From contig JANYHT010000062.1 in the NCBI GenBank assembly GCA_025358925.1, positions 1 through 64,000 of the forward strand: DNA of 64,000 nucleotides, written 5' to 3'. The translations under genes were made by a program, and so were the position numbers. This DNA is from Gemmatimonadaceae bacterium (GTDB lineage Bacteria; Gemmatimonadota; Gemmatimonadetes; Gemmatimonadales; Gemmatimonadaceae). Within the stretch, counting starts at the first letter, position 1. Every line of letters begins with the position of its first letter. The notes under the pieces are model-generated. The model saw nothing but the letters and a program-made list of their open reading frames with translations. It was not told the origin of the DNA and did not search any database. Positions 1,871 to 24,970 of the stretch are shown in pieces.

Positions 1871-2392
1871 TCAGGCGGTTCGCAGCGTCTTCGAATCATC
1901 TAACAGAGACTCAGACTTTCGTGCCGCGATGTTGAAGATCAACACACCAAACATCGCCTTGGAAATGATGTCGCAGATCGAATAGCCAACCTGCACGGCG
2001 GTGGTAGCGCCGCCGCCCGTGAATCCGATCATCGGGAACAGAAACACAATTGGGTAGAAGCACCACGAGACGATCGTGACCCAACGCGCCGTACTGATTA
2101 AACCGCGCACAGACTCAGGTTGCGTCGCAATGGATCGCTTGAGCCCAGTCGACAGATCCAGCACGATCAGTGCAAACGGTATCATCGAAAAGCTCCACCA
2201 GAGCCAGTGTGTTCCGGGCAGTGTTGCAATCTGTCCAAGATACCCAAGCACGATCATCAGCGCGGCAAGCAGGCCAAGCTTGGTGCTCTTCGACACTGTT
2301 TCTTTTCGGCCCAGCTGCATAACAAGAATGAGTTCAATTAGCAGCAGTGGTACGGTCAACAACCAATCGACATAGCGATACGCATCGTTGAA
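1871..2392 (-). pseudogene. Xanthorhodopsin-type proton-pump rhodopsin, 5'-truncated
   Basis: About 173 residues are visible, starting at 'FNDAYRYVDWLLTVP' (start of helix C) and ending after helix G. Helix C has the outward proton-pump triad spacing D-x3-T-x6-E ('DWLLTVPLLLIE'), with Leu at the green-tuning position eight residues after the Asp. Helix G contains 'GYSICDIISKAMFG', whose Lys would bind retinal. Helices A and B, roughly 80 residues, are missing: codons upstream (2393-2489) are open but Arg/Ser-rich and unlike any rhodopsin helix, and the region before that belongs to another protein. No proper start codon is seen. In helix E the motif is 'SWCFYP', where I recall the carotenoid-antenna rhodopsins having Gly in place of Cys. 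It sits upstream of crtY and blh, which would supply retinal. Confidence 0.88.
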
Positions 2393-3194: not shown

Positions 3195-5264
3195 TTAAAG
3201 CAACAAATCGGAGCGGAGGCGCGATCGCACGTTCCACACGATTGCACCAAGCAACGTGCTACGTCGCCACACAACGCGCGCTTCTCCCGATGCCCCAGCC
3301 CGCAACAGCGTGTCACGCGAAAGCTTCACGCGCACCTCGACCACACCGTCTGCGCTCAACATGCGATTCGACGCTGCGGCGACGCTCTCCACCACACCGA
3401 CCAGCGGCTCCGCCGCGTTCTCCAACGACAGCATCCGCACCGGATTTCCGACACGCACGCCCAACGCACCAGCACCGCGCAATTGCACGACAGCCTCGAG
3501 CGTTGAGAGGTCAGCGAGTCGCAGCAGCGTATCACCCAATTGCACGCGGCGACCCAACAACTGCTCGGGCCGAGGAGAAACCACCATGCCCGCGACGCCC
3601 GCACGCACGCTCAGCGCCTCCGCTTGCCGACGAGCCGCGCCTAGCCGGGCTGCCGCAGCGCCGGACTGCGCGTCGAGCACCGTGACATCACCGCTTCGCG
3701 CCCGCGCCCGTGCACGCATCGCCCAGGAGCGCAGTGAATCGTCGCTGCGGCTCTCGCGCAGTTCGGTGCGCACGAGGTCAAAGTTCGCCAATCGCAGCAC
3801 CGGTGCGCCCAGCGCCAGCACATCACCTTCGCGAACAAATACTGACGCCACCACACCCGCCGACGGCGCGGTCACGGTCAGTGCCGTGGATGGTAGCACC
3901 ACGAACGTGCCGCTCGCTGTGAGCCCGACCGGCACGAACGCAAAAATAATGAGCAACAGCAGTGCCGCGATCAATCCGTTGCGCCACCGTGCGCGCCGCG
4001 CGCTGCTGCCAGCCAGTGCGCGCACGCCGATGGCGACTACGGTCCGCACCCAAACGAGTAGTGTGCCTCCAATGCCGCGCGTCATGTACAGCACCGTCAA
4101 CAGTAGAAGCCCCGACACAAGCATGCCGAGGGTATGGTCAGCCCACCGGATAACACTCAATGCGATGGTTACCAAAATGACTGTGCCGTACAGCCACGAT
4201 GACGCACCGTAGCCCAGCAGGATCCGCGCCTCTCGCCGATCAAGCGCGGGCAGCTGCACTTCCTCGCGCAGCGCATGTCGGCGTATCCACGTCCCGGCGT
4301 ACGCCTGCGAGCGTTGGCGCAGGTTCGTGATCTCGAGCCAATCACCAAGCGCGAAGTATCCGTCCAGCGGCAACAACGGGTTCGCGTTCGTGAGCAGGTT
4401 AAAAATCCCACCCACGAGCATCGTCGCTATCGCCAGCTGACTGAGCACGGAACCAGGTGCGATCAGCAACCAGACGATAGCGATCACTGCGGTTACCACG
4501 AACTCGATCCACGCGCCCGCTGCCGTCACCCACAACCGCGCTCGCCTTTCAGGAAAACTCCACGCGTCATTCACGTTGGCATAAAACGCCGGCATGCAGA
4601 ACAACAGCATGACGCCCATCTCGTGCACTTTGCCGCCAAAGTGTTTGCACGCGTAGGCGTGCCCGAGTTCGTGAATCGCCGTGAGCAGCGAGAATGCGAC
4701 GATGATCACGACGACGGACCACGGGGTCATCGCCCCGAAGGCAAACGTGGCCGACAAATCTCGCGCGTAGGTGTCGCGCTGCGAGATCATGATGTACGCG
4801 TAAACCGCGAACAGTAGGAGCGACGTGACCACAAATACCGGGGTAAAGCACCAGCGAACCAGCGGATACGTACGCGTCAAGAACGCGTCCGGGTCACCAA
4901 ACGAGAAGCGTAATCGAAGCAGCTCACCCCGAATCAGCGAACGCGTACGACGACGTTCGGCACGCAAGCGTTCCAACTGCTGCGTGGTGCGTTCAACTAA
5001 TGTGCGCTCAAGTAGCCCGAGCCCCAACAATTTGCGGGCAAACCCTTCAACCGTCGCCACCGAAACTCGCACGCCATCGGCGACCAACTGCTCGGCCACA
5101 TCGGCCGCCGACCTCGCACCGTCGAACAAGCGCATGACGCGGATCTCGACTGGGCGAAACCGAAAGTACTTGTGTGTGGTGGGATCCTTCACCACAAAAC
5201 TTTGCTCGTTGCGAAAGATCTGCTCCACGATCGTCAAATCCGCACGCAGCAGAGGGGCGCTCAC
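3195..5264 (-). CDS. PqqD-like / M50 site-2 metalloprotease / HlyD fusion protein
   Basis: 689 residues. Residues about 15-90 resemble a PqqD/RRE-like winged-helix domain ('DPTTHKYFRFRPVEIRVMRL'), the fold that binds leader peptides in RiPP systems. A multi-pass membrane protease domain follows, with HELGH at 198-202 and the second metal-binding motif 'NPLLPLDGYF' at about 295-304, as in site-2 proteases. After further membrane segments, a membrane helix near 435-450 leads into a periplasmic biotinyl-lipoyl/HlyD-like region ('TAPSAGVVASVFVREGDVL'). The start is GTG, with the upstream adaptor gene ending three bases earlier, so the two are probably co-translated. The architecture resembles YydH/peptide-export proteases. 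Likely role: processing or export of a small peptide from the membrane; the substrate is unproven. Confidence 0.82.
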   Translation of the reverse strand: MSAPLLRADLTIVEQIFRNEQSFVVKDPTTHKYFRFRPVEIRVMRLFDGARSAADVAEQLVADGVRVSVATVEGFARKLLGLGLLERTLVERTTQQLERLRAERRRTRSLIRGELLRLRFSFGDPDAFLTRTYPLVRWCFTPVFVVTSLLLFAVYAYIMISQRDTYARDLSATFAFGAMTPWSVVVIIVAFSLLTAIHELGHAYACKHFGGKVHEMGVMLLFCMPAFYANVNDAWSFPERRARLWVTAAGAWIEFVVTAVIAIVWLLIAPGSVLSQLAIATMLVGGIFNLLTNANPLLPLDGYFALGDWLEITNLRQRSQAYAGTWIRRHALREEVQLPALDRREARILLGYGASSWLYGTVILVTIALSVIRWADHTLGMLVSGLLLLTVLYMTRGIGGTLLVWVRTVVAIGVRALAGSSARRARWRNGLIAALLLLIIFAFVPVGLTASGTFVVLPSTALTVTAPSAGVVASVFVREGDVLALGAPVLRLANFDLVRTELRESRSDDSLRSWAMRARARARSGDVTVLDAQSGAAAARLGAARRQAEALSVRAGVAGMVVSPRPEQLLGRRVQLGDTLLRLADLSTLEAVVQLRGAGALGVRVGNPVRMLSLENAAEPLVGVVESVAAASNRMLSADGVVEVRVKLSRDTLLRAGASGEARVVWRRSTLLGAIVWNVRSRLRSDLLL

Positions 5265-5267
5265 ACG

Positions 5268-6245
5268 CTATCGCCGAGGCGTCGCAAGGCGCTCACCGGC
5301 GCTTAATCCGCTCACGATTTCCACGCGGTCACCATCGACCGCTACACCCAGCACCACAGGACGCAACGTCGTGCGTGCACCATCGACGACCAACGCAAAG
5401 CCCTCCGGCGATAGTCCGGCCCGCGGCGCTACAAGCACGTGTCGCCGCTCGCTCCCCATCTCCGCCGTGACGCTCTGCCCTGAGAGGAAGCGCACACCGC
5501 CGAGGCGAAGGATTACTTCACGCGTGCCGCTCGCGGCGTCGAGGGCCGGTGCCGTGAAGAGCACACGTGCCTGATCTCGCGTGACCCCGTTCGCGGCTAC
5601 AATCGTGGCGCGATCACCAATGCGCACCGATGTCGCCGTCGCATCGTCCACGCGCACGCGCACCAACAACGGCGACGTTTCTACCACGCGAAACAACGTG
5701 TCTCCCACTGCGACGAGCTGTCGCGGGCGCACGTAGCGCGCCATCACGCGACCGCTAAACGGTGCGACCACACGCGTCAGGTCCAACTCTCGACGCGCCT
5801 TGAGCAGCGCGAGCTCTGCCTCGCGCAAATCTTCCTCCACGCGTTCCGAGTCGGCTACGGCCACTCCACCACTCGGTGACAGCGCACGGGAGCGCAATCG
5901 TGCGTTGCGCGCGCGATCCACGACCACTTGTGCACGCGCCAGTTCGATCTCCTGCGCACGATGCTCGATTGACGCCATCACTGCATCCGAGCGCACCTCC
6001 GATCCGAGTTGCACCGACAATGAATCGATCATGCCGGCCGCGCGCGCCGCGACGGCGACATCATGTTCGACATACACTTGTCCCGTGAACGATCGCGGCG
6101 ACGTCACCGTCGCGGTATCCACCAACATTGACGACGTGGGGATTGTCGTCGTGGGCGCCTTCGCATCAGGCGGAGCTGACTTGCACGCTGCCAATAGGAG
6201 AAACGTTACGACAAGGGCGTGCGCGCGGAGCGCACCAAGCTGCAT
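5268..6245 (-). CDS. Lipoprotein periplasmic adaptor (RND/HlyD membrane-fusion family)
   Basis: 325 residues from the chosen ATG. The N-terminus is a lipoprotein signal with lipobox 'LLLAAC' (Cys 21). It is followed by the typical membrane-fusion-protein layout: lipoyl half ('RAAGMIDSLSVQLGSEV'), a coiled coil ('EEDLREAELALLKARRELDL'), second lipoyl half ('VVAPFSGRVMARYVRP') and beta-barrel. Such proteins bridge an inner-membrane pump to the outer membrane, but no RND or ABC pump gene is adjacent. The start at 6245 is chosen because it forms TGATG with the stop of the GAF-HlyD gene and puts the signal peptide at the N-terminus; the frame is open back to 6272. The next gene starts three bases downstream. 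Confidence 0.85.
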   Translation of the reverse strand: MQLGALRAHALVVTFLLLAACKSAPPDAKAPTTTIPTSSMLVDTATVTSPRSFTGQVYVEHDVAVAARAAGMIDSLSVQLGSEVRSDAVMASIEHRAQEIELARAQVVVDRARNARLRSRALSPSGGVAVADSERVEEDLREAELALLKARRELDLTRVVAPFSGRVMARYVRPRQLVAVGDTLFRVVETSPLLVRVRVDDATATSVRIGDRATIVAANGVTRDQARVLFTAPALDAASGTREVILRLGGVRFLSGQSVTAEMGSERRHVLVAPRAGLSPEGFALVVDGARTTLRPVVLGVAVDGDRVEIVSGLSAGERLATPRR

Positions 6246-8212
6246 CACAGCCACGACCACATCCTCCACCACAAGAGTCTGACTACACGTACCGGCGTGC
6301 GCAGCAGCCGCCCTGCCAACGAAGCCGGTGCCGTGAGCACTCGCGCATGCGCCGCCATCCCTGGCTTCACCGCGCCATCACTATTCGGCACCAGCGCCCG
6401 CACGAGATACCGGACCACAGTATCGCCCGTCAACGCCATCGCTCCCACCGACGTGACGCGACCGTCAATCGTGCGCTGCGGCAGCGCTTCCATGCGGATG
6501 CGAACTGGATCGCCTACGCGCACTCGGTTGATGTCGCGCTGGTCTACGCCAAACTCAAGCTCCAACGTGTCCGTGCGCCCGAGCACGATGAACGACTCAC
6601 CGGCTGCGAGCTTGCTGTCCACCTTCCGTTCGGGCCGTGCGGAGAGCACCACCCCGCGCATCGGCGCACGCAACGTCATGCTCGACAGCTCGACCTCGCG
6701 CAACACCAGGTCAGCGCGCGCTGATTTCTCGAGCATGGTTTCCAGACGCTGTTCGGCAGCGTCGCCCCGACTTGCCGCGACGACCGCACTCTGTTTCGCG
6801 ACCAGCATCGTGGCCATCGCATTCTCCCGCGCTGCGCGCGCATCCACGTCGCGCAACCGCGCAATCGGGTCGCCCGGTGCGACGCTCATACCTTCACGCA
6901 CCATCACTTGATCGACCGTACCCGCCGCCAACGAACGCACGTCGGTGAAGCCCGTCGGCAGGAACACGGGCGACTCGGCGACGACCCGCAATGGCCACTG
7001 AATCAGCGTGAGCGCGACGAGCGTCAAAACTCCAATGGACGCAGCAGCGGCGCGTTTACGCTGCGGAATGGCGAAGAACGCGGCCCGCTTAGCACTGATC
7101 GCGCCGAGCGCCTGCGCCATCGGCACTTGGCTGTACAGCTTGGCATTGCGGATAGCGACGGTTGCTTGGTTCGCCATGATCGCCGCAATGTCTCGTTCGC
7201 GCGTGCTGGCGAATTCGGCACGCTTCGCCTCGAACAGGAGAATGCCAACAATCCCTTCCTCGTCACGCAGCGGCAGATAAAGGCCACTGTGCATCCCCGT
7301 CTGCGCCAATTCACCGTCGAAAAATTGCAGGAAGATGCGCTCCGTATCCGAGCCCGGCGCTTCGCGATCGGAGAGGTAAAACGCTTCGCCGGTGCCTGCG
7401 GCCCATGCCGCACGGAACGCGAGGTCACGCATTGCGTCCGCCTTAGAGTCGACGGCCGACGCGCCAGCTACTGCGCGGATGTCGCATGCGCCGTTCTCGT
7501 ACAACGCGAGTGCCCCGAGGTCGAACGACAGCGCCCTCGCGGCAATGTTGACGACCGTCTGTAACACGCGATCAAGGTCAAGCGACGATCCGATCTCGCG
7601 ACTGACTTCCTGAATCAACTTGAGGTCGTCGGAGCGGTCGGCGGCCTTCATGCGTGCCGCCAGTCGCAGCGCGGAGGCGGTCCCCTCCGCCAGCAGCATT
7701 AACGCCTCGCGGTCACTGTCCACAAACGGCAACGCCACATCGCCGGACTGGGTCGTCGCGTCACGCGCGACGCGCAGGTAACCCACGGTGCTGGTGCCTG
7801 AGATAATCGGCTCAACCAGCGTGCGCAATTCGCCGTCACGACCGCCGAGCACTGATATCGCCACGGTTGATCCGCGCAGCGCATCGGCGCCTAGCCCAAC
7901 GGCCAGTTGGCAGGTAGCCTGATCATCGCCGGGCACCCAGAAGGAGCTGCTGTCGGCGCTCAGCAACCTTCGGGCGGCGTTGAGCGCCGTGGAGAGCAGC
8001 GTGCGCTGATCCTGCTCTCCAACCATGTCCAGCACCGCTCGCACTGTTTGCTGCAGCCGCGTATCGGACAACGCCGCGCTCGGGTCGGGGAATGAAGAAG
8101 GAGCGGCGGAAGACTCCACGTGGCCGACGAACGGGAGAACTGCGCGATGCCGACGATAAAGCGGGAAGATGCCACGCGTTTCATGCGGACACAACCATGT
8201 TAATACGAGCAA
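6245..8212 (-). CDS. GAF-GAF-TM-HlyD adaptor protein
   Basis: Up to 655 residues. Two GAF-like sensory domains (about 70-185 and 205-360; the second contains 'GLYLPLRDEEGIVGILLF') are followed by a membrane helix (about 388-408) and a periplasmic HlyD-type adaptor: lipoyl motif 'GTVDQVMVREGMSVAPGDPI', a short helical hairpin and a barrel domain. This joins cytoplasmic ligand or redox sensing to a periplasmic export adaptor in one chain. The start is uncertain: the frame opens with TTG at 8212, right beside the terminator hairpin, and an internal GTG at 8119 is an alternative; no clear ribosome site marks either. It ends in TGATG coupling with the lipoprotein adaptor gene. Confidence 0.82.
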   Translation of the reverse strand: MLVLTWLCPHETRGIFPLYRRHRAVLPFVGHVESSAAPSSFPDPSAALSDTRLQQTVRAVLDMVGEQDQRTLLSTALNAARRLLSADSSSFWVPGDDQATCQLAVGLGADALRGSTVAISVLGGRDGELRTLVEPIISGTSTVGYLRVARDATTQSGDVALPFVDSDREALMLLAEGTASALRLAARMKAADRSDDLKLIQEVSREIGSSLDLDRVLQTVVNIAARALSFDLGALALYENGACDIRAVAGASAVDSKADAMRDLAFRAAWAAGTGEAFYLSDREAPGSDTERIFLQFFDGELAQTGMHSGLYLPLRDEEGIVGILLFEAKRAEFASTRERDIAAIMANQATVAIRNAKLYSQVPMAQALGAISAKRAAFFAIPQRKRAAAASIGVLTLVALTLIQWPLRVVAESPVFLPTGFTDVRSLAAGTVDQVMVREGMSVAPGDPIARLRDVDARAARENAMATMLVAKQSAVVAASRGDAAEQRLETMLEKSARADLVLREVELSSMTLRAPMRGVVLSARPERKVDSKLAAGESFIVLGRTDTLELEFGVDQRDINRVRVGDPVRIRMEALPQRTIDGRVTSVGAMALTGDTVVRYLVRALVPNSDGAVKPGMAAHARVLTAPASLAGRLLRTPVRVVRLLWWRMWSWL

Positions 8213-8221
8213 TCAAACGTG

Positions 8222-8250
8222 AAAAACCGGACGAGAATCGTCCGGTTTTT
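8222..8250. terminator. Perfect intrinsic terminator hairpin between peptide gene and adaptor operon
   Basis: The 13-base arms AAAAACCGGACGA (8222-8234) and TCGTCCGGTTTTT (8238-8250) pair perfectly around a 3-base loop and give a U-run in either direction. It lies about 60 bases after the stop of the 52-residue peptide gene and just before the GAF-HlyD frame, all on the minus strand. It would end most peptide-gene transcripts, with some read-through into the adaptor genes. Confidence 0.85.
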
Positions 8251-8312
8251 CGAGGAGCCAATCTCCGGGATCGCGCGCTGTGACGCGATCGCCTAGGGAA
8301 CAAGCCGCAGCA

Positions 8313-8471
8313 CTACGGCGCCACCACTCGCGGGGCAATGCGCTCCTCAAGTTCCTGCGCGTTCAGTTCGATCGATTCTGCGTCTTTGCCAGTGGCCTGC
8401 TTGACCTGAAGTTTCTGTCCGTCCGTAAGGTCGATGCGGATGAAGTTCTCGTCCTTGCTCTGCTGGAACAT
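8313..8471 (-). CDS. Small 52-aa peptide with C-terminal LEERIAP motif (putative precursor)
   Basis: The protein starts 'MFQQSKDENFIRIDLTDGQK', is charged and soluble through its middle ('VKQATGKDAESIELNAQ') and ends 'ELEERIAPRVVAP'. The start at 8471 is preferred over the upstream ATG at 8525 because GGAG lies five bases before it. There are no cysteines and no signal peptide. The LE-x-R core followed by a short hydrophobic/proline tail resembles the LEPR- and LEDR-type sorting or processing motifs I recall from Planctomycetes proteins; this is inference. Its position upstream of a PqqD-like/M50 protease and adaptor genes, separated by a terminator, is how RiPP or processed-peptide precursors are often arranged. 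A function as precursor is a hypothesis. Confidence 0.7.
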   Translation of the reverse strand: MFQQSKDENFIRIDLTDGQKLQVKQATGKDAESIELNAQELEERIAPRVVAP

Positions 8472-8643
8472 TCGAGCTCCGTACTCTGAGGTTAACTGCG
8501 AGGGAATGGGGTTCCGCCCCGACATCTGCCATCACTTTGCGAGACCAGTGTGAAAATATCGTGAAAGCGGTTTCATCCGGTGTGACGACCGCGTACGTTT
8601 TCGCGGCACAGGTCCGTTCCGACCCCTTCACATTGCCGGTGCC

Positions 8644-10902
8644 ATGCGACTGACTCTTTGCGGCACGGTGCAGCTATGCGTGGACGGCATAGACGCCGAC
8701 AATCGGGTTGTGCCGTTGCCAGCCAAATCACTGGCGCTGTTGGCGTACTTGTCGCTTGAGCCTGGCGAACACGCTCGCGATGAACTGCGCGGTCTGTTGT
8801 GGGGCGAGTCGCCGGAAGACAAGGCCAACGCGTCATTGCGTCAAGCGCTCAAGCAGTTGCGCGACGCAGTCGGTGATGTGATAAGCATGGAGCATCACTG
8901 TGTCGCGGTGCGCGGCGATGTCGACAGCGACATCGCTGACTTTCGCCGGTTGGTCGAGACGCAGAGTGAGCGTGCCGCAGACTACGACATCCCGCGGTTT
9001 CTCAGCGTCTTGCACATTCGAGAGGTACCGGCTTTTCAGCAGTGGGCAGACCGGACGCGGAATACACTCCTGCGCGAGTACCGCCGCACGCTGTCGGCAA
9101 CAGCACGTAGTGCGTTCGCCAAACGTGATTGGGGACGCGCCCTCGATTTAGCGCGCCGTTGGGAGCAGCTCGACCCGTTCTCCGACGATGCGGCGCACTT
9201 CCACGTCGAGGTGCTGTTTCTGATGGGTGAGCGTGATGCAGCGTTGGCCGCGTTCCGCGACTTTTGTGGGCGTCGTGAACGCGACGACGACATCGCGCCT
9301 GGGCTGGCGCTTCAAGCGTTGGTCGCGCGCATTGAGCAAGCGCCGTCGAGACCGACATCCGTTCGTGCCACCACCGCTCGCCCGTTGCCATTGCCGTCAT
9401 TCAATGCAGGGCTGATCGGTCGCGAACGGGAGTGGGGCGCGCTCATGCAAGCATGGCACGCGCTCACAAGTGGCCGCGGCGGTGTGGCGTACATTGAAGG
9501 AGTTGCCGGCATTGGAAAGTCACGCCTTGCCGACGACGTTGCGCGTTTCGCGACCGCTCAGAAATGCACCGTGCTGCGCGGCCGTGCGTTTTACGCCGGG
9601 TTGGACGCCCCGTTCGGACCGGTACTCGACATGTTGCGCGGCGCCGTTGCGGCGCCGGGTGCGGCGGGGGCCGATGGCGCATGGCTCGCTGAAGTGGGCC
9701 GCATCGTACCAGAGATTCGTCACGAGTTTCCGTCGCTGCCACAACCGGCCCGGGCCCCTACAGCAGACGGCTCGTTGTTGCACGAAGGGGTGGCGCAGCT
9801 CCTACGCGCGGTGGCCGAGGAGCGGCGCGTACTCATCGTGATCGACGACCTGCAGTGGTGCGACGCGGACAGTTGCAACCTTGTGCACTATCTCGTGCAT
9901 CGCCTGCAGGACGCGCCGATACTTTGGTGCATGACGGTGACGTTGGGCGTTGTTGAACGCGATACACCCGCTGCGCGATTGGCCCGTGCGCTTCGCTCTG
10001 CTGCCGCTGCGGCGCGGATCACCCTCGCGCCATTGTCACAGGAGGAGGTGCGACAGCTCATTCGCGCGCTCGGGCACCTTACACATGCCGACGGTGCGCG
10101 ACGACTCTCAAAACGCGTGCACGAAGTGACTGGTGGCAATGCACTTTACGTTGTGGAGCTGTTGAAGACGCTCTTCGTGCGCGGTTGGCTTACGGTGGAC
10201 CCGGCTACGCAGGCATGGCGTAGTACCGGCTCCGACTCCGACTCCGACGATTTGCTGACGAGTGAACTTTTCCCCGACGTGCGCACCGCCATCGCCGAGC
10301 GTGTCGCGGCATTGCCGGTCGAACAGCACGCCCTGTTACTGACGATCGCCGCGACGGGGAGCGGATGTCATACAAGCCTGTTGTCGTACGTGCATGGCAT
10401 CTCGCGCCTCCGTGCCGCGCAAGTGTGCGACACGCTCGTGGATCGTCACTTGGTGCGTGAGGTCGATAGCCACTATGTCTGCTCGCACACGGTGATTGCG
10501 AGCGTCGTCCTCGACACGATGGGCGCATCACGACAGCGCGAGGTACACCGCATGATCGCGTTTGCACTCACCGACGCGGCGGAAAGCGTGCGTCGGATCG
10601 TGGACCCTGGTGCAATCGCGCGCCACGCCGAGGCGGGGGGTGAGCACGCCATGGCGCATCGGTATTCGCTCGTTGCCAGTGCGCAGTGTGTCGAGCAGTC
10701 CGCGTGGGACGATGCCCTTACATGGCTCGACCTGGCGACGTCATGCGCCTCCACGCTTGAGCAAGTACGCGAGGCCGATGACGCAACGGCGGCATTGCTT
10801 GGTCGCCCGAATTGGGGAGCGGCCACACCGCGTATCGATGTAAGCCGAACACCGATTCAGCGTGAGAGCATCGGACGTAGCGACCTCGATCTGCTGCGCT
10901 GA
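8644..10902 (+). CDS. SARP/BTAD-type transcriptional regulator with AAA/NB-ARC-like ATPase
   Basis: 752 residues. Residues 1-90 form an OmpR-like winged-helix DNA-binding region ('LAYLSLEPGEHARDELRGLL', 'ASLRQALKQLR'); residues about 95-235 a BTAD helical domain ('FAKRDWGRALDLARRWEQLD'); from about 255 an ATPase with Walker A 'GVAGIGKS' (286-293) and Walker B 'VLIVIDDLQWCD', then winged-helix and helical repeats. This is the AfsR/SARP plan without a long C-terminal sensor. It is divergently transcribed from the small peptide gene, with about 170 bases between the two starts, so it may control the peptide/adaptor operon. The ATG at 8644 opens directly on the DNA-binding domain; no strong ribosome site is visible. 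Confidence 0.85.
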   Translation: MRLTLCGTVQLCVDGIDADNRVVPLPAKSLALLAYLSLEPGEHARDELRGLLWGESPEDKANASLRQALKQLRDAVGDVISMEHHCVAVRGDVDSDIADFRRLVETQSERAADYDIPRFLSVLHIREVPAFQQWADRTRNTLLREYRRTLSATARSAFAKRDWGRALDLARRWEQLDPFSDDAAHFHVEVLFLMGERDAALAAFRDFCGRRERDDDIAPGLALQALVARIEQAPSRPTSVRATTARPLPLPSFNAGLIGREREWGALMQAWHALTSGRGGVAYIEGVAGIGKSRLADDVARFATAQKCTVLRGRAFYAGLDAPFGPVLDMLRGAVAAPGAAGADGAWLAEVGRIVPEIRHEFPSLPQPARAPTADGSLLHEGVAQLLRAVAEERRVLIVIDDLQWCDADSCNLVHYLVHRLQDAPILWCMTVTLGVVERDTPAARLARALRSAAAAARITLAPLSQEEVRQLIRALGHLTHADGARRLSKRVHEVTGGNALYVVELLKTLFVRGWLTVDPATQAWRSTGSDSDSDDLLTSELFPDVRTAIAERVAALPVEQHALLLTIAATGSGCHTSLLSYVHGISRLRAAQVCDTLVDRHLVREVDSHYVCSHTVIASVVLDTMGASRQREVHRMIAFALTDAAESVRRIVDPGAIARHAEAGGEHAMAHRYSLVASAQCVEQSAWDDALTWLDLATSCASTLEQVREADDATAALLGRPNWGAATPRIDVSRTPIQRESIGRSDLDLLR

Positions 10903-18338: not shown

Positions 18339-18387
18339 CCCTAACCCCTAACCCCCAACCCCTAACCCCTAACCTCTAGTCCCTATC
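18339..18387. repeat. Telomere-like heptamer tandem repeat (CCCTAAC)n
   Basis: Seven consecutive 7-base units, CCCTAAC, CCCTAAC, CCCCAAC, CCCTAAC, CCCTAAC, CTCTAGT, CCCTATC, fill most of the gap between the ComEA-like gene and the SprA stop codon. The last unit overlaps the SprA stop (18383-18385). Units 1, 2, 4 and 5 are identical; the others are degenerate. Confidence 0.9.
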
Positions 18388-21300
18388 TCAATTCTCCCGC
18401 AAAAAAGCGCAAACTCATCACCACACTGATTGCCGTATTCGCAATTCGTCGATTGTAGTTTCGATCGAACGTTAGGACTTGCGAACCCGTCAAACTAAAC
18501 GTGACCAGTTCCGACAGGTCCGTATTGGCATTGAAGTTGAATGCACGACGCCCATTGTCCGTCAGCACCGACGACGCACCGACCAAGGTGGCTGTCGTGC
18601 CGTCGATTGTGGTGCTGCTGGTGGCGCCACCAACAATGGAGATTGTTTGATCCGACACGTACGTCGCTTGGGTGCGTAAATTGCCGCGCGTATTCCATTT
18701 CTTGGGCAGTTTGAATTGACGCGCGACATCGATCGACATGCGCTTCGATTCACCGTTCGTGATTGAACCCGGTCGAATTTCCTCTCGCCACGAATGATCT
18801 AGGGAACCATTCGTGGTGAGTCCACCGAGAAACGCCCACGTAATGCTGGCCGAAATGGGCTGACTACGCGACAGCGCTCGACTGCGATCAGCCGTTCCAC
18901 CGGCATCGTTGGGAATGACAGTCTGTTGTACACTTGCCGTGTATCGGCCCGTGAGCGTCAGCGCAGTGAAGACTTTCGCGAGGCGCACGGGTCGCCAGTT
19001 CCAGTTCGCGCTAATGTCCGGATACGTGCGTTGGTCGCTCGTGATCAGCGCCTGAAATCCGTCCAGCGAACGACGCGTCCATGTTTCCGACGTGCTGTTG
19101 TCGAGATGCGTACGAATCGACAACGAATACGGCAGGTTCAGCGAGCCGGTCGCATTGAGCTGCCGCACACGACCGGCTGACGTGGCGAGATTAGAATTGA
19201 GTCCGCGAAAATCACGAAGCCCGCCAAGTCCAAGCTGATACCCGAAGCTTGGCAACAGCGCGGTATTGTCGTAGTTCGACGTGAGACTTTGCGACCAATT
19301 CACGTCGATAGGCGCGAGCCAACGGCCGAACGCGTGCCACATGCTCTTATCCGCCGTGCGCGCCGAGAGCAGTCGTCCGAGATCGAGCGTGGTACCGGTA
19401 CGAAATGTTTGAAATGCGCCAAGACGCTTGGGTAGTCGAAACGCACCGGTCGAATCACCTTCGCGAAGCAGCGCGCGCGCGTTGGGATCTTTGTTGAGGT
19501 CGAAGCGCGACGTGAATTCCAGGCGCGGCCGGAACCAGATCGACACACTGGGTTGAAATCCAATCGCCGATGTGAGTGAACGATCACGCTCCAACCCAAT
19601 TGGTGCTCCGAGAAATTTCAAACGCTCGGCGGCGGCGGCTTGACGCCGATCGGAGCTGTCGGGGAGCGATGTCGCATCGCGATAGTCGCGCAGATCGAGC
19701 GTTTGTTGCGCCACGATGCTCGCCGATGTGCCCGCGGTTGGTGCGAATCGTAACTCGCCCGTGTTGCGCCACACATGCGTGAGGCCGTTCACCGTTTGTC
19801 CGGTGTCTGTTGGCGACACAGCGGCCTTCGTGAACGACGTAAAAGCGTTCGCGTTGCGCGCCATTGCGCTCGTTAACCGCATTTGCGTGGGTCGCCAACG
19901 GAAACGCTGCGCACGAAATCCGCGAATCGCATCGGTCTCACGCAACCGTTTCGGCAGCGCACCAAACAGCCGATCCAGCAGTGCTGGCAATCGTCCTTCG
20001 CGCGTATCGTCGCTAATATCAAGCGCGCCGCCGAGTACGTAGTTGGCGTTACTGGCCTCTTGGAACGCGCTGCGTGTTACGCCGGACGACCACGCACCAT
20101 TGAGCGACAATCCGTTCAACACCGGCGCGTACCACCCGTGGCTGAGCGGCGTGGCACGCCTCAGTGCGAGCGAATATCCAACGCGCGAATCCTTCGGATT
20201 GCGTAAACCGTTGATCCCCGTTGCACGTACGTCAGTACGATTGATGAATAGCTGTTCGACCCCAGCGCCTGCGTAGTCCACACTAAACGGCAGCACGATG
20301 CCCAGTCGCGCGGGAAGCATGCGTTCGAGGTGGAAGGTGCTACCAACACTGACGCCACTCGTGGTGAGAAACGACGGCGTTTCGCCAAGTTGTCGAAAGT
20401 TTGGATCGCGCCGATTGACATTCAATCGAAACTCTGCAAGATCGGCCGCATTGAACGACAGTCCAAGCTCGCCGGCAAATCCGATGTCGTCAACGACGTC
20501 GGTAAGGCGAATATCGTCAATCCATAGTTCGAGCGAGTCGTTCGCGATGATGGCGTTGCCCCCGCGCGGAATGCTGTCGACACGCACAAAACCTACGGAC
20601 AGTTCTTGCACGCCGGCCAAGTTTGGTGGTGTGACGCTTGGATCAGCACTGTACACGATGTAGCCATCCTGACAAACGGCATAGCGACGGACAATCAACC
20701 CTGTTGGCAATCCCGAACGTTTGATCAATTCTAAGTCGGTACCGGAGCACGAAATAGAGTCTTTGGATGCCGTCAGGAAATTATTTTCCAACTGTGCACG
20801 GAGTGCTTGGAATCGCGTGAGATCAACACGTACTTCAGGATCCCACGCACTCTGCGATGGGCCGGAGCCGACCGGCGTTCGATACATGTAGAAGTTATGC
20901 TCGTCGCGACCGATTTTTATGAATCCATTCAGTTCTCCATTCACACCCCATCCGTTACCGCGACCGCGCATCCATACGCGCAACGAACGGTAACCCATAA
21001 AGCTTTTCGTACCTTCGGGGAATCGGTAGTATGCTTCCGCGCGGTCAAACGTGCGAAACTGTTGGCCAGGAATGCCGGCCTGCAATCGTAGTGCGCGTTC
21101 GTTCACCTGTACGACAGAATTCGTGTAGCCGGCGGACTTCGTTTCGGCGGCTTCGATCACGCCCGGCGGCGCACTGTATGGCAGTGTGGCGGACGAATCG
21201 AGTGTCCCGACGACGCCTGCAATCACATACCCGTTGATCGGCCCAAGCGAATCGCCAGCCGCTCCGGAAATCGGACGCTCGGCGCGTTTGAGCCACGGCG

Positions 21301-24300
21301 CGCCAACCAACTTAAAACGCGCAAGCGCAATCTGTTGAAACGCATCGTCCTCAACCGCCGCGCTCGACACCATCGTCATACGCAGTGCGCGCATGCGACG
21401 CTCATTGGGCGCATTGAGTTCCTCCAGCGGCGCTCGCCAATTGAGTTTGATCTGCACCCAGCACAGCGAATCACCCGCCAAGCCCGTGGTGGTCGAGGCC
21501 GCAGACTGATAGCACTTGCCAATGCGCGTCCAGGTTTTCTTGTCCCCCAAGTCAACCGAGAATCGCTTGAATTGCTCCTGATCGATTGCCGTACTCGGGA
21601 TGTTGAGCTGTCCATCGAGATCAATGTCCTCTTCATCCAACCGACTATTGCGCACGGTGCAGTTACCACGACTATCACCTAATTGTCGCGTGTCTTGTAC
21701 GGATGCAGCACATAGCGTGACCTTGTTGGCCGTGGTGATCGTGGTCGGTGATGTCGTGCGATCAACAATGACGATGGTATCCGCGACGTCACCAGGCAGC
21801 CCCTTGTCGTTCTCAATCGCGTTAAACGTGCGAGAGAACGGATCGCGTTCAGAATCAAATCGATCGTAACCGACCAGTCGCTTGCCGCGATATGTGCTGT
21901 CGGGACGACCGGATTTTGGTGATCGATTGATCGTCAGCGTTTCCGGCGCGAACGCCACGCTGTTCTCGCTAATTTCGCCGAAATCGAAGACCAGTGTTGG
22001 ATTGCGCTTCACCTTCGACGCTTCCGACTTGAGCAAAACGAAGAACTCAATATTCTCGACGCGCGATAAGTCCGATCCATTCGGATTAAGCACGTAGCGG
22101 AGCGATCTCCAACGTCGACCGGACGGCGTATTGCCGACCATGCTGTTGTCACCAATCGTCCACGCGAAACGGCGGACATTGGTGTCAGGTTGATAGTCGT
22201 AAATACCGCCGGCTTTGAGCGGATGCAGTCCGAGCCAGAGCAGTTGTTCGTTCTGCTGCACACCAGCGCCAGCCGTTCGTACGAGTGGATCGATTTGTTG
22301 AATGCTGAACTGCAAAAAGTTATTGCCGTCAAACCCATTGTTCTGATACGCCAGCGTGGTCGCGCGATTCAGCGCGAGCGTATTGCTACCAATCACGCTC
22401 GACAAACGCGTACCGAATGCCGGTCGCGAACTAAAATACCACGCGCCTTCCGCCAACGAAATTGGTACACCCGCATCGCCTTCGAATGATTCGATATACG
22501 CCTGCCCCGCAGAATTCGGCTGTGGTTTGCTCATCGCAAATTCGCCTTGCAGTTGCACACGGGAGCGCGTGTTCCCTGCACCAAACGGCAGCTTGCCGAG
22601 CGCGTGGCTGAGGAGCGGTGCGTCCCACGCCAGATTGGCCGTCATTCCGGCGACGAGTGAACCGTTCGGCTCAAAGCCCAAAGGCGGTCGCGTGAGTGAT
22701 GAATTTTGTTGCTGCGAAATGGCGGTGAAAGAAATCTGTCCGTTGTCGAGCGGGAACTGCGACGCAAACCCAACGATGGTGGTTGGCGCTGCCGCGAACT
22801 GCGGATTCTCTTCGTATCGCACCGTGACTTGCCGTGCACGCGGAAAGAGCGTGTCGGGTCGACTGAAAGTGATCGTGCCGAGATCGTAATCGATTTTGTA
22901 GTCGGTGTCGCGCACCAACAGTTGCCCTTCAAGCGCCACACGTTCGGAGTTGGGCCGCAATTGAATGGAGTTGAGCCGGATGGACTGCGTGGCACCGCCA
23001 CCTTCCGACTGATATTTGGCAAGCAATCGGTAGATGGCCTGCGGACGCTGCGCCGAATACAGATATTCATTGGGGTACCGGTACAACGTGTCGTTGGCCG
23101 GGTTGGCGAGGGGCTGCGCGAGCCCCGCACGGGCGAATGGTTGCAGCGACGGAAACATCACGAAGTAGTCGCGAATCAGTTTCTGTTGCCCGCCACTCGC
23201 CACCGAAAAATTCGGATCATTGGGCCTCGGCCACACGCGATTTTCCAAGTCAAACGCCGAGGGATTGGTGGCTTGTGCTAGTCCGAAGAGCTGCAAATAG
23301 GTTTCGCCACGAGATGGATCAAACGGTTTTTCTTGGTCGCCCGACGTGCCGGTCACCACCTTGAGCGTAATAGTGCCGCGTTGCACATCTTCGCCGCCGA
23401 GTCGATACACCGACTTAACCTCACGAAAAAAGTATTCGAGGTTGGTCGGCTGAAGTTCGGGCTCCCACAAGAGGTTGGCAAATTGCGGGGCGTCGGTGAG
23501 TTCGATGTCGGGCGAGCCGCCGGTACTGACGTTGCGTCCGGGCACGCCGTTTTGCGTGACTTCGTACGCGACGGCCAGTCGTTCACTACTCGCGTCCACG
23601 GGGCGTACAAGTGAGATCCACAACTGCGATGGATCCACGTAGTAGTCCACATTTTCGCGCAGCAGTTCGTACGTTTGACGTGCCGGGTTGCGGGCGCCGC
23701 GCACGGAGAACTGCGGTCCGCGCGGATTTTGATTGGTGGCCCCAACACGCTGTCGATAGATAAAGATGCGTGTTGGGCGAATGGAGTCAGCCAGTGACGA
23801 TGACAACTGTTGCATCTGTTGGCGATTCAACATGTCGATGTTGGGATAGCCGCGCAGCTGTCTCGGGTCGACGGTAAAGAAAAATCGTCGCGTTTCAATT
23901 TGGATGTCTTCGATGGGACGGTCCACTGACTGTTGCGAGCGGTCACCGACTGTGAACACGTTGTCTTTCGAGACGTTGCCTTTTTGCTGCGCCACAATAC
24001 CGGTGAAACGCATCGGACCGATTTGGCCTCGCGCCTGCACGCCGTAATTACCGGCCGGTATGCCGGCCGTGAGAAAGCGCGACGGCGGCGGTTGGAACGT
24101 GACGTTGCCAACTTCGAGACGCTGCAATAGTTCGTCAGACTTTCCTTGGTAAAAAATGGAGATGTTATTGGACGCATCAAACTCTCGTTGCGAGTCATAG
24201 TCCACGTTGAGGTTGACGCGATCGGCGATGACACCGCCCGTTTTGACATTGAATTGAAAGTCGAACGCTGGTTGGAGCGACGCCGTGCATCCGGTCCCGA

Positions 24301-24970
24301 AATTCGCGAGTTGCGCCGCCGTGCAACTTTGATTGCGCGTGCGTTGCAGTTTCGATTCGAGGCGCGCATTGAGGTTGATGCCCAGATTGCTGCCAAAAAT
24401 GTCTCCGCCCAGGGGCGTCCGTGCGTCTGGGCCTTCGCGTCGACGTGGGGTGAGCAGCGGAACCAAAGCGCCTGGCGTTGGACCTGAATCCACAGCGGTT
24501 GCGGCAACCGTAGTAGCTTGCGTGCGCCGTAGCAGGTCACGCTGCACCGATTGCGTCCAGCGACGACGTAAGAGTTGCTCTTTGCGTTGCGTGGCATCGA
24601 TGACGGCCTGCTGGGCGACACGGGCGGGGTCGGGATGGTACCAAGCACCGCCGGTAAACGGGCCAAAAATGGCGCGCCGACGCAGCACGAGTGAATCGGT
24701 AAACAATCGCAAGCCTTGCCACACCGGCTCGCGAAAGAGAGAGTCAATCGGCGATTTCGCCGAGATTGGCGGCGCGGTTGGCATGGGCACAACAGTGCCC
24801 ACCGGTCGCTGGGCAGCAACAGGGAGAGCAGCGGTGATGCAAAAAAAAGGCAGGAGAACACGGGCGCAGCGGCGCACCGAACTCCGATCGTGGGGTACCA
24901 GCGGCTCGACCCGCTGCGCCGGTACGGTTTCGTGCAATGGGCGCATCACATGGACATCATGCTGATGCAC
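18383..24970 (-). CDS. sprA: SprA-like giant outer-membrane protein
   Basis: 2195 residues, close to the size of SprA, the outer-membrane translocon of the Bacteroidota type IX secretion system. A signal peptide ends near residue 54 ('RVLLPFFCITAALPVAAQ'). Family-like blocks are 'GGDIFGSNLGINLNARLESK', 'VNLNVDYDSQREFDASNNIS', 'GNYGVQARGQIGPMRFTGIV' and 'DTDYKIDYDLGTITF'. Many alternating hydrophobic strands run to the C-terminus, which ends 'VVMSLRFFAGELR', as expected for a very large beta-barrel. The start is uncertain: the frame begins with GTG at 24970, and an ATG at 24946 is equally possible. It is divergent from lptF with only 37 bases between. No other type IX gene is in the window. 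Function by analogy: an outer-membrane export channel. Confidence 0.85.
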   Translation of the reverse strand: MHQHDVHVMRPLHETVPAQRVEPLVPHDRSSVRRCARVLLPFFCITAALPVAAQRPVGTVVPMPTAPPISAKSPIDSLFREPVWQGLRLFTDSLVLRRRAIFGPFTGGAWYHPDPARVAQQAVIDATQRKEQLLRRRWTQSVQRDLLRRTQATTVAATAVDSGPTPGALVPLLTPRRREGPDARTPLGGDIFGSNLGINLNARLESKLQRTRNQSCTAAQLANFGTGCTASLQPAFDFQFNVKTGGVIADRVNLNVDYDSQREFDASNNISIFYQGKSDELLQRLEVGNVTFQPPPSRFLTAGIPAGNYGVQARGQIGPMRFTGIVAQQKGNVSKDNVFTVGDRSQQSVDRPIEDIQIETRRFFFTVDPRQLRGYPNIDMLNRQQMQQLSSSLADSIRPTRIFIYRQRVGATNQNPRGPQFSVRGARNPARQTYELLRENVDYYVDPSQLWISLVRPVDASSERLAVAYEVTQNGVPGRNVSTGGSPDIELTDAPQFANLLWEPELQPTNLEYFFREVKSVYRLGGEDVQRGTITLKVVTGTSGDQEKPFDPSRGETYLQLFGLAQATNPSAFDLENRVWPRPNDPNFSVASGGQQKLIRDYFVMFPSLQPFARAGLAQPLANPANDTLYRYPNEYLYSAQRPQAIYRLLAKYQSEGGGATQSIRLNSIQLRPNSERVALEGQLLVRDTDYKIDYDLGTITFSRPDTLFPRARQVTVRYEENPQFAAAPTTIVGFASQFPLDNGQISFTAISQQQNSSLTRPPLGFEPNGSLVAGMTANLAWDAPLLSHALGKLPFGAGNTRSRVQLQGEFAMSKPQPNSAGQAYIESFEGDAGVPISLAEGAWYFSSRPAFGTRLSSVIGSNTLALNRATTLAYQNNGFDGNNFLQFSIQQIDPLVRTAGAGVQQNEQLLWLGLHPLKAGGIYDYQPDTNVRRFAWTIGDNSMVGNTPSGRRWRSLRYVLNPNGSDLSRVENIEFFVLLKSEASKVKRNPTLVFDFGEISENSVAFAPETLTINRSPKSGRPDSTYRGKRLVGYDRFDSERDPFSRTFNAIENDKGLPGDVADTIVIVDRTTSPTTITTANKVTLCAASVQDTRQLGDSRGNCTVRNSRLDEEDIDLDGQLNIPSTAIDQEQFKRFSVDLGDKKTWTRIGKCYQSAASTTTGLAGDSLCWVQIKLNWRAPLEELNAPNERRMRALRMTMVSSAAVEDDAFQQIALARFKLVGAPWLKRAERPISGAAGDSLGPINGYVIAGVVGTLDSSATLPYSAPPGVIEAAETKSAGYTNSVVQVNERALRLQAGIPGQQFRTFDRAEAYYRFPEGTKSFMGYRSLRVWMRGRGNGWGVNGELNGFIKIGRDEHNFYMYRTPVGSGPSQSAWDPEVRVDLTRFQALRAQLENNFLTASKDSISCSGTDLELIKRSGLPTGLIVRRYAVCQDGYIVYSADPSVTPPNLAGVQELSVGFVRVDSIPRGGNAIIANDSLELWIDDIRLTDVVDDIGFAGELGLSFNAADLAEFRLNVNRRDPNFRQLGETPSFLTTSGVSVGSTFHLERMLPARLGIVLPFSVDYAGAGVEQLFINRTDVRATGINGLRNPKDSRVGYSLALRRATPLSHGWYAPVLNGLSLNGAWSSGVTRSAFQEASNANYVLGGALDISDDTREGRLPALLDRLFGALPKRLRETDAIRGFRAQRFRWRPTQMRLTSAMARNANAFTSFTKAAVSPTDTGQTVNGLTHVWRNTGELRFAPTAGTSASIVAQQTLDLRDYRDATSLPDSSDRRQAAAAERLKFLGAPIGLERDRSLTSAIGFQPSVSIWFRPRLEFTSRFDLNKDPNARALLREGDSTGAFRLPKRLGAFQTFRTGTTLDLGRLLSARTADKSMWHAFGRWLAPIDVNWSQSLTSNYDNTALLPSFGYQLGLGGLRDFRGLNSNLATSAGRVRQLNATGSLNLPYSLSIRTHLDNSTSETWTRRSLDGFQALITSDQRTYPDISANWNWRPVRLAKVFTALTLTGRYTASVQQTVIPNDAGGTADRSRALSRSQPISASITWAFLGGLTTNGSLDHSWREEIRPGSITNGESKRMSIDVARQFKLPKKWNTRGNLRTQATYVSDQTISIVGGATSSTTIDGTTATLVGASSVLTDNGRRAFNFNANTDLSELVTFSLTGSQVLTFDRNYNRRIANTAISVVMSLRFFAGELR

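Follow-up and report, generated by a model that had tools for sequence, protein, structure and literature searches.

A candidate RRE-guided peptide processing and export module in Gemmatimonadota, with a SARP-like regulator and a tag found in several phyla

The window analyzed here (64,000 nucleotides, positions 1 to 64,000 of contig JANYHT010000062.1 of the Gemmatimonadaceae bacterium assembly GCA_025358925.1) contains a gene for a 52-residue peptide, genes for a GAF-HlyD protein, a HlyD-type lipoprotein and a protein in which an RRE domain, an M50 protease and a HlyD adaptor are fused, and a divergent gene for a SARP-like regulator. On balance, we favor the view that these genes form an RRE-guided peptide processing and export module, whose steps of binding, cleavage, export and regulation we infer. 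A first-pass annotation of the sequence had proposed a peptide-binding, -cutting and -exporting system at this locus, and the GAF-HlyD, lipoprotein, M50-HlyD and SARP genes were all found where it had placed them, according to open reading frames (ORFs), Pfam and NCBIfam. The features of the locus are the following (lengths in amino acids, aa):

3195-5264, minus strand: RRE-M50-HlyD fusion protein, 689 aa (Pfam, NCBIfam, homologue alignment, structure models)
4659-4673, minus strand: HELGH zinc motif of the M50 protease, with the second motif, NPLLPLDGY, downstream (homologue alignment)
4992-5264, minus strand: RRE (PqqD-like) domain of the fusion, about residues 1-90 (profile matches, AF2 model)
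5268-6245, minus strand: HlyD/RND-type adaptor lipoprotein (TIGR01730, 3.6e-36, above cut-off; signal; lipobox LLAAC)
6245-8212, minus strand: GAF-HlyD protein (Pfam GAF_2, 2.7e-15; HlyD_D23, 1.5e-17; conserved gene)
8221-8251, minus strand: terminator hairpin in the gap between the peptide and exporter genes (14 pairs plus T tract)
8313-8471, minus strand: precursor peptide, 52 aa, MFQQSKDENFIRIDLTDGQKLQVKQATGKDAESIELNAQELEERIAPRVVAP (ORF, ribosome-binding site, 50+ homologues)
8316-8330, minus strand: tail RVVAP, predicted to be released (variable stretch after the conserved Pro)
8331-8354, minus strand: ELEERIAP codons (-8 to -1), predicted RRE-binding and cleavage motif (family conservation, likeness to the daptide motif)
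8549-8565, minus strand: putative SARP-type operator TTCACG-N5-TTCACA, an 11-bp direct repeat (third half-site 21 bp upstream)
8644-10902, plus strand: divergent SARP/BTAD-AAA regulator (AAA_16, 2e-23; BTAD and Trans_reg_C below cut-off)

The fusion protein was analyzed by profile and structure comparisons. When a profile of 45 homologues was compared with solved chains, the four best matches were PaaA, TbiB1, PqqD and TfuB1 (E 0.003-0.14), and Pfam PqqD was matched by 32 of these homologues at E values up to 1. The AF2 model of the N-terminal domain (pLDDT 86) has the RRE fold, consisting of a three-stranded sheet and a helical winged-helix part. The top six Foldseek matches of this model are TbiB1/TfuB1 leader complexes, and its VIA Z scores are 11.0 with TfuB1 (82 residues), 10.1 with TbiB1 and 8.8 with PqqD. 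By these models and profiles, the N-terminus of the protease is an RRE domain of the PqqD/lasso B1 type. A PqqD-like N-terminus had been predicted in the first-pass annotation and was set in advance as a point on which that annotation could fail; profiles, AF2, Foldseek and VIA agree on it. In the M50 part, the residues HE, H and N-P-DG are invariant in 38 homologues and the match to Pfam PF02163 is above the cut-off. A transmembrane helix lies near residues 423-448, and the HlyD part matches Pfam HlyD_3 and has MacA as its best structural match (VIA Z 17). The closest named family in NCBIfam is the daptide intramembrane protease, which aligns over residues 18-395, the RRE included (1.5e-57); next comes the YydH/LiaK epipeptide protease (55 bits vs. 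a cut-off of 225).

In the family alignment of the peptide, the block ELExRIAP is the best conserved, with E in 50, L in 51, E in 50, R in 50, I in 47 and A in 45 of the 53 sequences; the Pro is present in all 53, a count that is not independent evidence because Pro was part of the selection pattern. The residues after this Pro form a tail with a median length of 6 aa, which is variable and shows a weak pattern, x-[KTR]-[LVIMF]. The long “tail” of one of the 53 sequences (L082) is an artifact, as the pattern anchored it at an upstream look-alike. The tail is RVVAP in the window, vs. RLCL and RMSM in the nearest relative, whose protease is 90% identical and which is the closest named one, a Gemmatimonadaceae metagenome-assembled genome of the same genus. 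Neither Pfam nor NCBIfam has a family that matches the peptide, or the tagged proteins described below at their tag. Daptide leaders carry ELExMEAP at positions -8 to -1; processing by MpaB/MpaC requires L(-7) and M(-4), and MpaP, an RRE-dependent intramembrane peptidase, takes the leader off (PMC10036551). Two independent lines, the closest protease family and the leader motif, thus lead us to propose that the RRE apparently reads ELEERIAP and that the M50 protease cuts after the Pro. For the bind-cut-export system of the first-pass annotation, this means that binding and cutting gain backing from both comparisons, whereas actual cutting, the departure of the peptide from the cell and its handling by the three HlyD proteins are what we infer.

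The peptide ORF as listed mechanically comprises 70 aa (8313-8525). We placed the start at 8471, in agreement with the 52 aa given earlier, because a ribosome-binding site, ACGGAG, precedes the internal ATG and the homologues begin there. The ATG of the lipoprotein gene overlaps the stop codon of the GAF-HlyD gene. The GAF-HlyD protein has cytosolic GAF domain(s), one transmembrane segment near residues 390-410 and a periplasmic adaptor, and its true start may lie inside the called ORF. The strong 14-pair hairpin, which is also kept in the closest relative (L063), separates the peptide gene from the exporter genes; therefore, tight coupling holds for the three exporter genes and not for the peptide gene. 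No second copy of the peptide was found in the window genome.

Within Gemmatimonadota the unit is conserved; the lack of a conserved neighborhood in other genomes was the second point on which the first-pass annotation could have failed, and here, too, it held. Among 395 genomes sampled over the phylum, the protease is present in 33, the peptide in 36 and both in 26, compared with about 3 expected. The hypergeometric p for this co-occurrence, 2.6e-26, treats the genomes as independent and is overstated by the kinship among them; the gene order adds weight that does not depend on this p. Among 149 relatives, M50-HlyD was found in 23 genomes, the peptide in 23 and both in 19. Dozens of genomes have homologues of the peptide, frequently as two or three tandem copies, and in nearly all loci with intact contigs the order is SARP on the opposite strand, peptide (1-3 copies), GAF-HlyD, HlyD and M50-HlyD, the divergent SARP-like regulator being the partner in most loci. 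Analysis of the gene order revealed neither a recurring modifying-enzyme gene in the neighborhood (about 20 genomes) nor an ABC, RND or MFS pump or other transporter gene in the conserved unit; the first-pass annotation had also noted that a pump is absent.

Some further observations concern the neighborhoods of these loci. Ser/Thr protein kinase and related TPR genes adjoin the unit in 11 of 34 loci (L069, L073, L074, L095, L096 and others). The kinases were considered as members of the unit, but their frequency there may reflect the mere abundance of kinases in the phylum. Five orphan members of the peptide family (L083, L084, L086, L088 and L194), distant from any M50-HlyD gene, share a conserved NHNE tail (e.g., LASNHNET) and look like a separate product. 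L180-L184 encode small proteins with a common N-terminal LTPEQ-type module, without LEERIAP, which end in a conserved GGGPLxFLWRLSxASGIPRQRW-like block.

Direct repeats of 11 bp are the known shape of SARP sites. Pairs of TTCAC[GA] exactly 11 bp apart are present in 16 of 22 regions upstream of the regulator gene, against a mean of 0.007 and a maximum of 1 in shuffled sequences. The 34 loci surveyed (499 kb) contain 26 boxes, every one of them 70-182 nt upstream of a peptide gene on the same strand. They also precede orphan peptides away from exporter genes (L085, L088), second peptide copies have their own box, and in L070, where the peptide gene lies downstream of the exporter genes, the box accompanies the peptide. 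The regulator itself scores 20.1 bits for Pfam BTAD (cut-off 22.1) and 18.9 for Trans_reg_C (cut-off 26.2). To judge from these sequence patterns, the SARP-like regulator probably activates the peptide promoter via the 11-bp TTCAC[GA] repeats. Genome-wide, the box pattern has a background of about 1.5 sites per genome; the second site in the window genome (C3) was discarded, as it is located inside the coding sequence of a sigma-54 regulator.

The first-pass annotation had covered the Gemmatimonadota form only, and the LExRIAP tag is also found N-terminally, beside RRE-M50-HlyD genes, in other phyla. We scanned 84,980 genomes with the protease alignment and analyzed the best 80 of 205 loci. 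ORFs having LExR[IV][AT]P after a Met numbered 60 and came from 37 of these 80 loci; every one lay on the strand of the protease gene, and reversed sequences gave 0. As the bare LExRIAP DNA pattern turns up by chance about once per genome in the relatives, it was rejected as evidence, and the evidence for the tag is its adjacency, strand and N-terminal position. Outside Gemmatimonadota, the tag follows 5-25 residues at the N-terminus. The small proteins that carry it there are 50-95 aa long, have Gly/Ser/Asn-rich tails and are often encoded in tandem (five in L167, four in L171). Giant tagged proteins were found in Planctomycetota (1494 aa), Oligoflexia (2080 aa) and Magnetococcales (863 aa or more). 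The Magnetococcales-type loci contain a gene for a TolC-like outer-membrane efflux protein, and two Magnetococcales-type genomes encode one more tagged protein, distant from the protease gene. Apparently, judging by sequence, RRE-M50-HlyD proteins handle low-complexity peptides and giant tagged proteins in other phyla. More tentatively, at a probability that we would place below even, there may be a general ABC-free secretion route, in which the RRE would be the receptor for an N-terminal LExRIAP signal and RRE-M50-HlyD would take cargo of 4 to 2000 residues, cutting the tag at the membrane, in Gemmatimonadota, Acidobacteriota, Planctomycetota, Magnetococcales, Nitrospirota, Bdellovibrionota-type bacteria, Betaproteobacteria and Verrucomicrobiota. 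A separate observation is that GAF-HlyD/HlyD/M50-HlyD loci of Acidobacteriota have convergent small tandem-repeat peptides (LQRGAGV, LVSKAP, LAKKVN) in place of LExRIAP, at L120:6317-6499, L161:4129-4392 and L162:4449-4823; these are often near genes for a sigma-54 response regulator and a STAS protein.

Our proposed mechanism is as follows. The SARP-like regulator would activate the peptide promoter, giving much peptide and, through read-through of the terminator, less exporter. The N-terminal RRE of the fusion would dock the ELEERIAP block of the leader, and the membrane-embedded M50 site would cut directly after the Pro. The short tail, RVVAP in the window, would then be handed to the fused MacA-like adaptor and leave the cell by way of this adaptor, GAF-HlyD, the HlyD lipoprotein and an outer-membrane channel encoded elsewhere. 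For EpeP, a related M50 protease, a double role in cleavage and export has been suggested (PMC10885120), which makes a pump-free unit less strange. Because of the length and variability of the tail and the neighboring regulator gene, we would guess, with weak support, that the tail is a short linear peptide signal.

Several points weigh against this mechanism. There is no ABC, RND or MFS pump in the unit that would account for the energy source and the inner-membrane channel. The score of the fusion for the daptide protease family is 195.5 bits vs. a cut-off of 300, and the daptide residues Met(-4) and Glu(-3) are replaced by Arg and Ile in the peptide. Short and variable tails also fit an unconstrained end. 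Four genomes (G049, G098, G111 and G333) have a full peptide and no detected protease, and the L082 locus of G098 has the regulator, the peptide and a three-copy SARP box, which suggests that the peptide can persist without its usual protease; such absences are soft, as the genomes are mostly metagenome assemblies. Finally, 35 of the 56 loci outside Gemmatimonadota have no match to the tag near the protease gene, and many of them have other repeat peptides.

We considered four other explanations. One of them, which is compatible with the mechanism above, is that the tail is an exported pheromone, sensed by the TPR-like SARP after re-import or via GAF-HlyD, for which Gram-positive RRNPP systems with Eep-type M50 proteases are the model. 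It would account for tails of 3-10 residues that differ between close relatives and between tandem copies, for a regulator gene divergent from the peptide gene, and for operator-like repeats before each peptide, orphan copies included; however, the BTAD match is below the Pfam cut-off and the tails share a weak pattern only, and we regard it as possible but rather unlikely. Alternatively, the peptide could be the precursor of a ribosomally synthesized and post-translationally modified peptide (RiPP), i.e., a pearlin-like scaffold or orphan RiPP whose tail would first be modified by enzymes encoded elsewhere, the M50 protease then clipping off the modified residue or tail. In favor of this, RREs as a rule work with RiPP enzymes (PMC7470986), C-terminal modified residues are set free by the M50 proteases TglG and TmoG (PMC10885120), and the orphan members of the family have a conserved tail, ASNHNET. 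Since no modifying enzyme is conserved in the neighborhood in about 20 genomes and the tails have no common Cys, Ser, Thr or other obvious target, this explanation seems improbable to us.

A similarly low probability applies to the idea that the uncut peptide docks on the RRE and there, as a subunit, regulates or activates an adaptor complex exporting other cargo. The leader is indeed far better conserved than the tail, the length of which varies widely, but in other phyla the tag is N-terminal on long, cargo-like proteins, and the protease motifs are intact throughout. Least probable by far is that these are ordinary efflux adaptors with a coincidentally adjoining small ORF: HlyD/RND adaptors occur widely, and general models of efflux adaptors match two of the three found here, but the co-occurrence, the synteny, the cross-phylum tag and the fusion of an RRE to the protease all argue against coincidence.

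Two other regions of the window were noted. A bacteriorhodopsin-like ORF (1871-2362, minus strand) adjoining the lycopene cyclase gene (670-1638) starts at about position 76 of the 224-position Pfam model, lacks the first helices and is probably a truncated rhodopsin gene. An ORF of 2195 aa (18383-24970, minus strand) has no Pfam match at E 0.001.

RRE domains are familiar as partners that guide peptide-modifying enzymes and leader peptidases. In the present fusion, such a domain is joined to both a membrane protease and an export adaptor; moreover, the same eight-residue tag is found on very different proteins, paired with RRE-M50-HlyD across phyla. Should our reading be true, a further secretion signal would be recognizable in sequences, candidate cargo could be named among unannotated proteins, small and giant, of bacteria from soil and groundwater, and Gemmatimonadota would gain a candidate short-peptide system. 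A testable question that follows is how an M50 protease and adaptors, without an obvious pump, move cargo across the inner membrane.

Among known systems, daptide loci resemble the unit in the fusion of an RRE to an M50 protease (MpaP/DapP; PMC10036551; NCBIfam NF041824), in having several precursors per locus, and in a leader block of equal length that ends in Ala-Pro at the cut (ELEERIAP here vs. ELExMEAP). Unlike daptide systems, the unit has a fused HlyD domain, no ABC transporter and no conserved cluster of oxidative decarboxylase, aminotransferase and methyltransferase genes (MpaB/C/D/M-type); its peptide has Arg at -4 and Ile at -3, and the tail lacks the invariant C-terminal Thr of daptides. 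A daptide system was ruled out by the protease score and by the tests on the leader and Thr and on modifying genes. Epipeptide systems (YydH/LiaK/EpeP, NF058609; PMC10885120) likewise have an M50 protease of a small peptide that has been suggested to cut and export, but the unit has RRE and HlyD domains and lacks radical SAM epimerase and ABC genes; the score of 55 vs. 225 bits and the lack of a further conserved enzyme gene ruled out this assignment. Periplasmic adaptors, the MacA-like HlyD fold and the TolC-like gene of the Magnetococcales-type loci recall type 1 secretion and MacAB-TolC. In the present unit, however, the inner-membrane partner is an RRE-M50 protease and the tag is N-terminal, and a type 1 system was rejected because the conserved unit has no ABC transporter. 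The NCBIfam model LEPR-8K (NF012209) describes a short motif of N-terminal type named for LEPR and, judged by this name, may have a similar LE-x-R-type signature; it gave no match at E 0.001 in seven RRE-M50-HlyD genomes, nor did it in the controls. Searches for the motif and for the combination of PqqD, M50 and HlyD in the literature, with subscription papers largely outside the search, yielded no description of the unit, in line with the first-pass annotation, which had not known it to be described. The parts are of known kinds, and what is new relative to the literature searched is their combination, the link to a SARP-like regulator and the tag that recurs across phyla.

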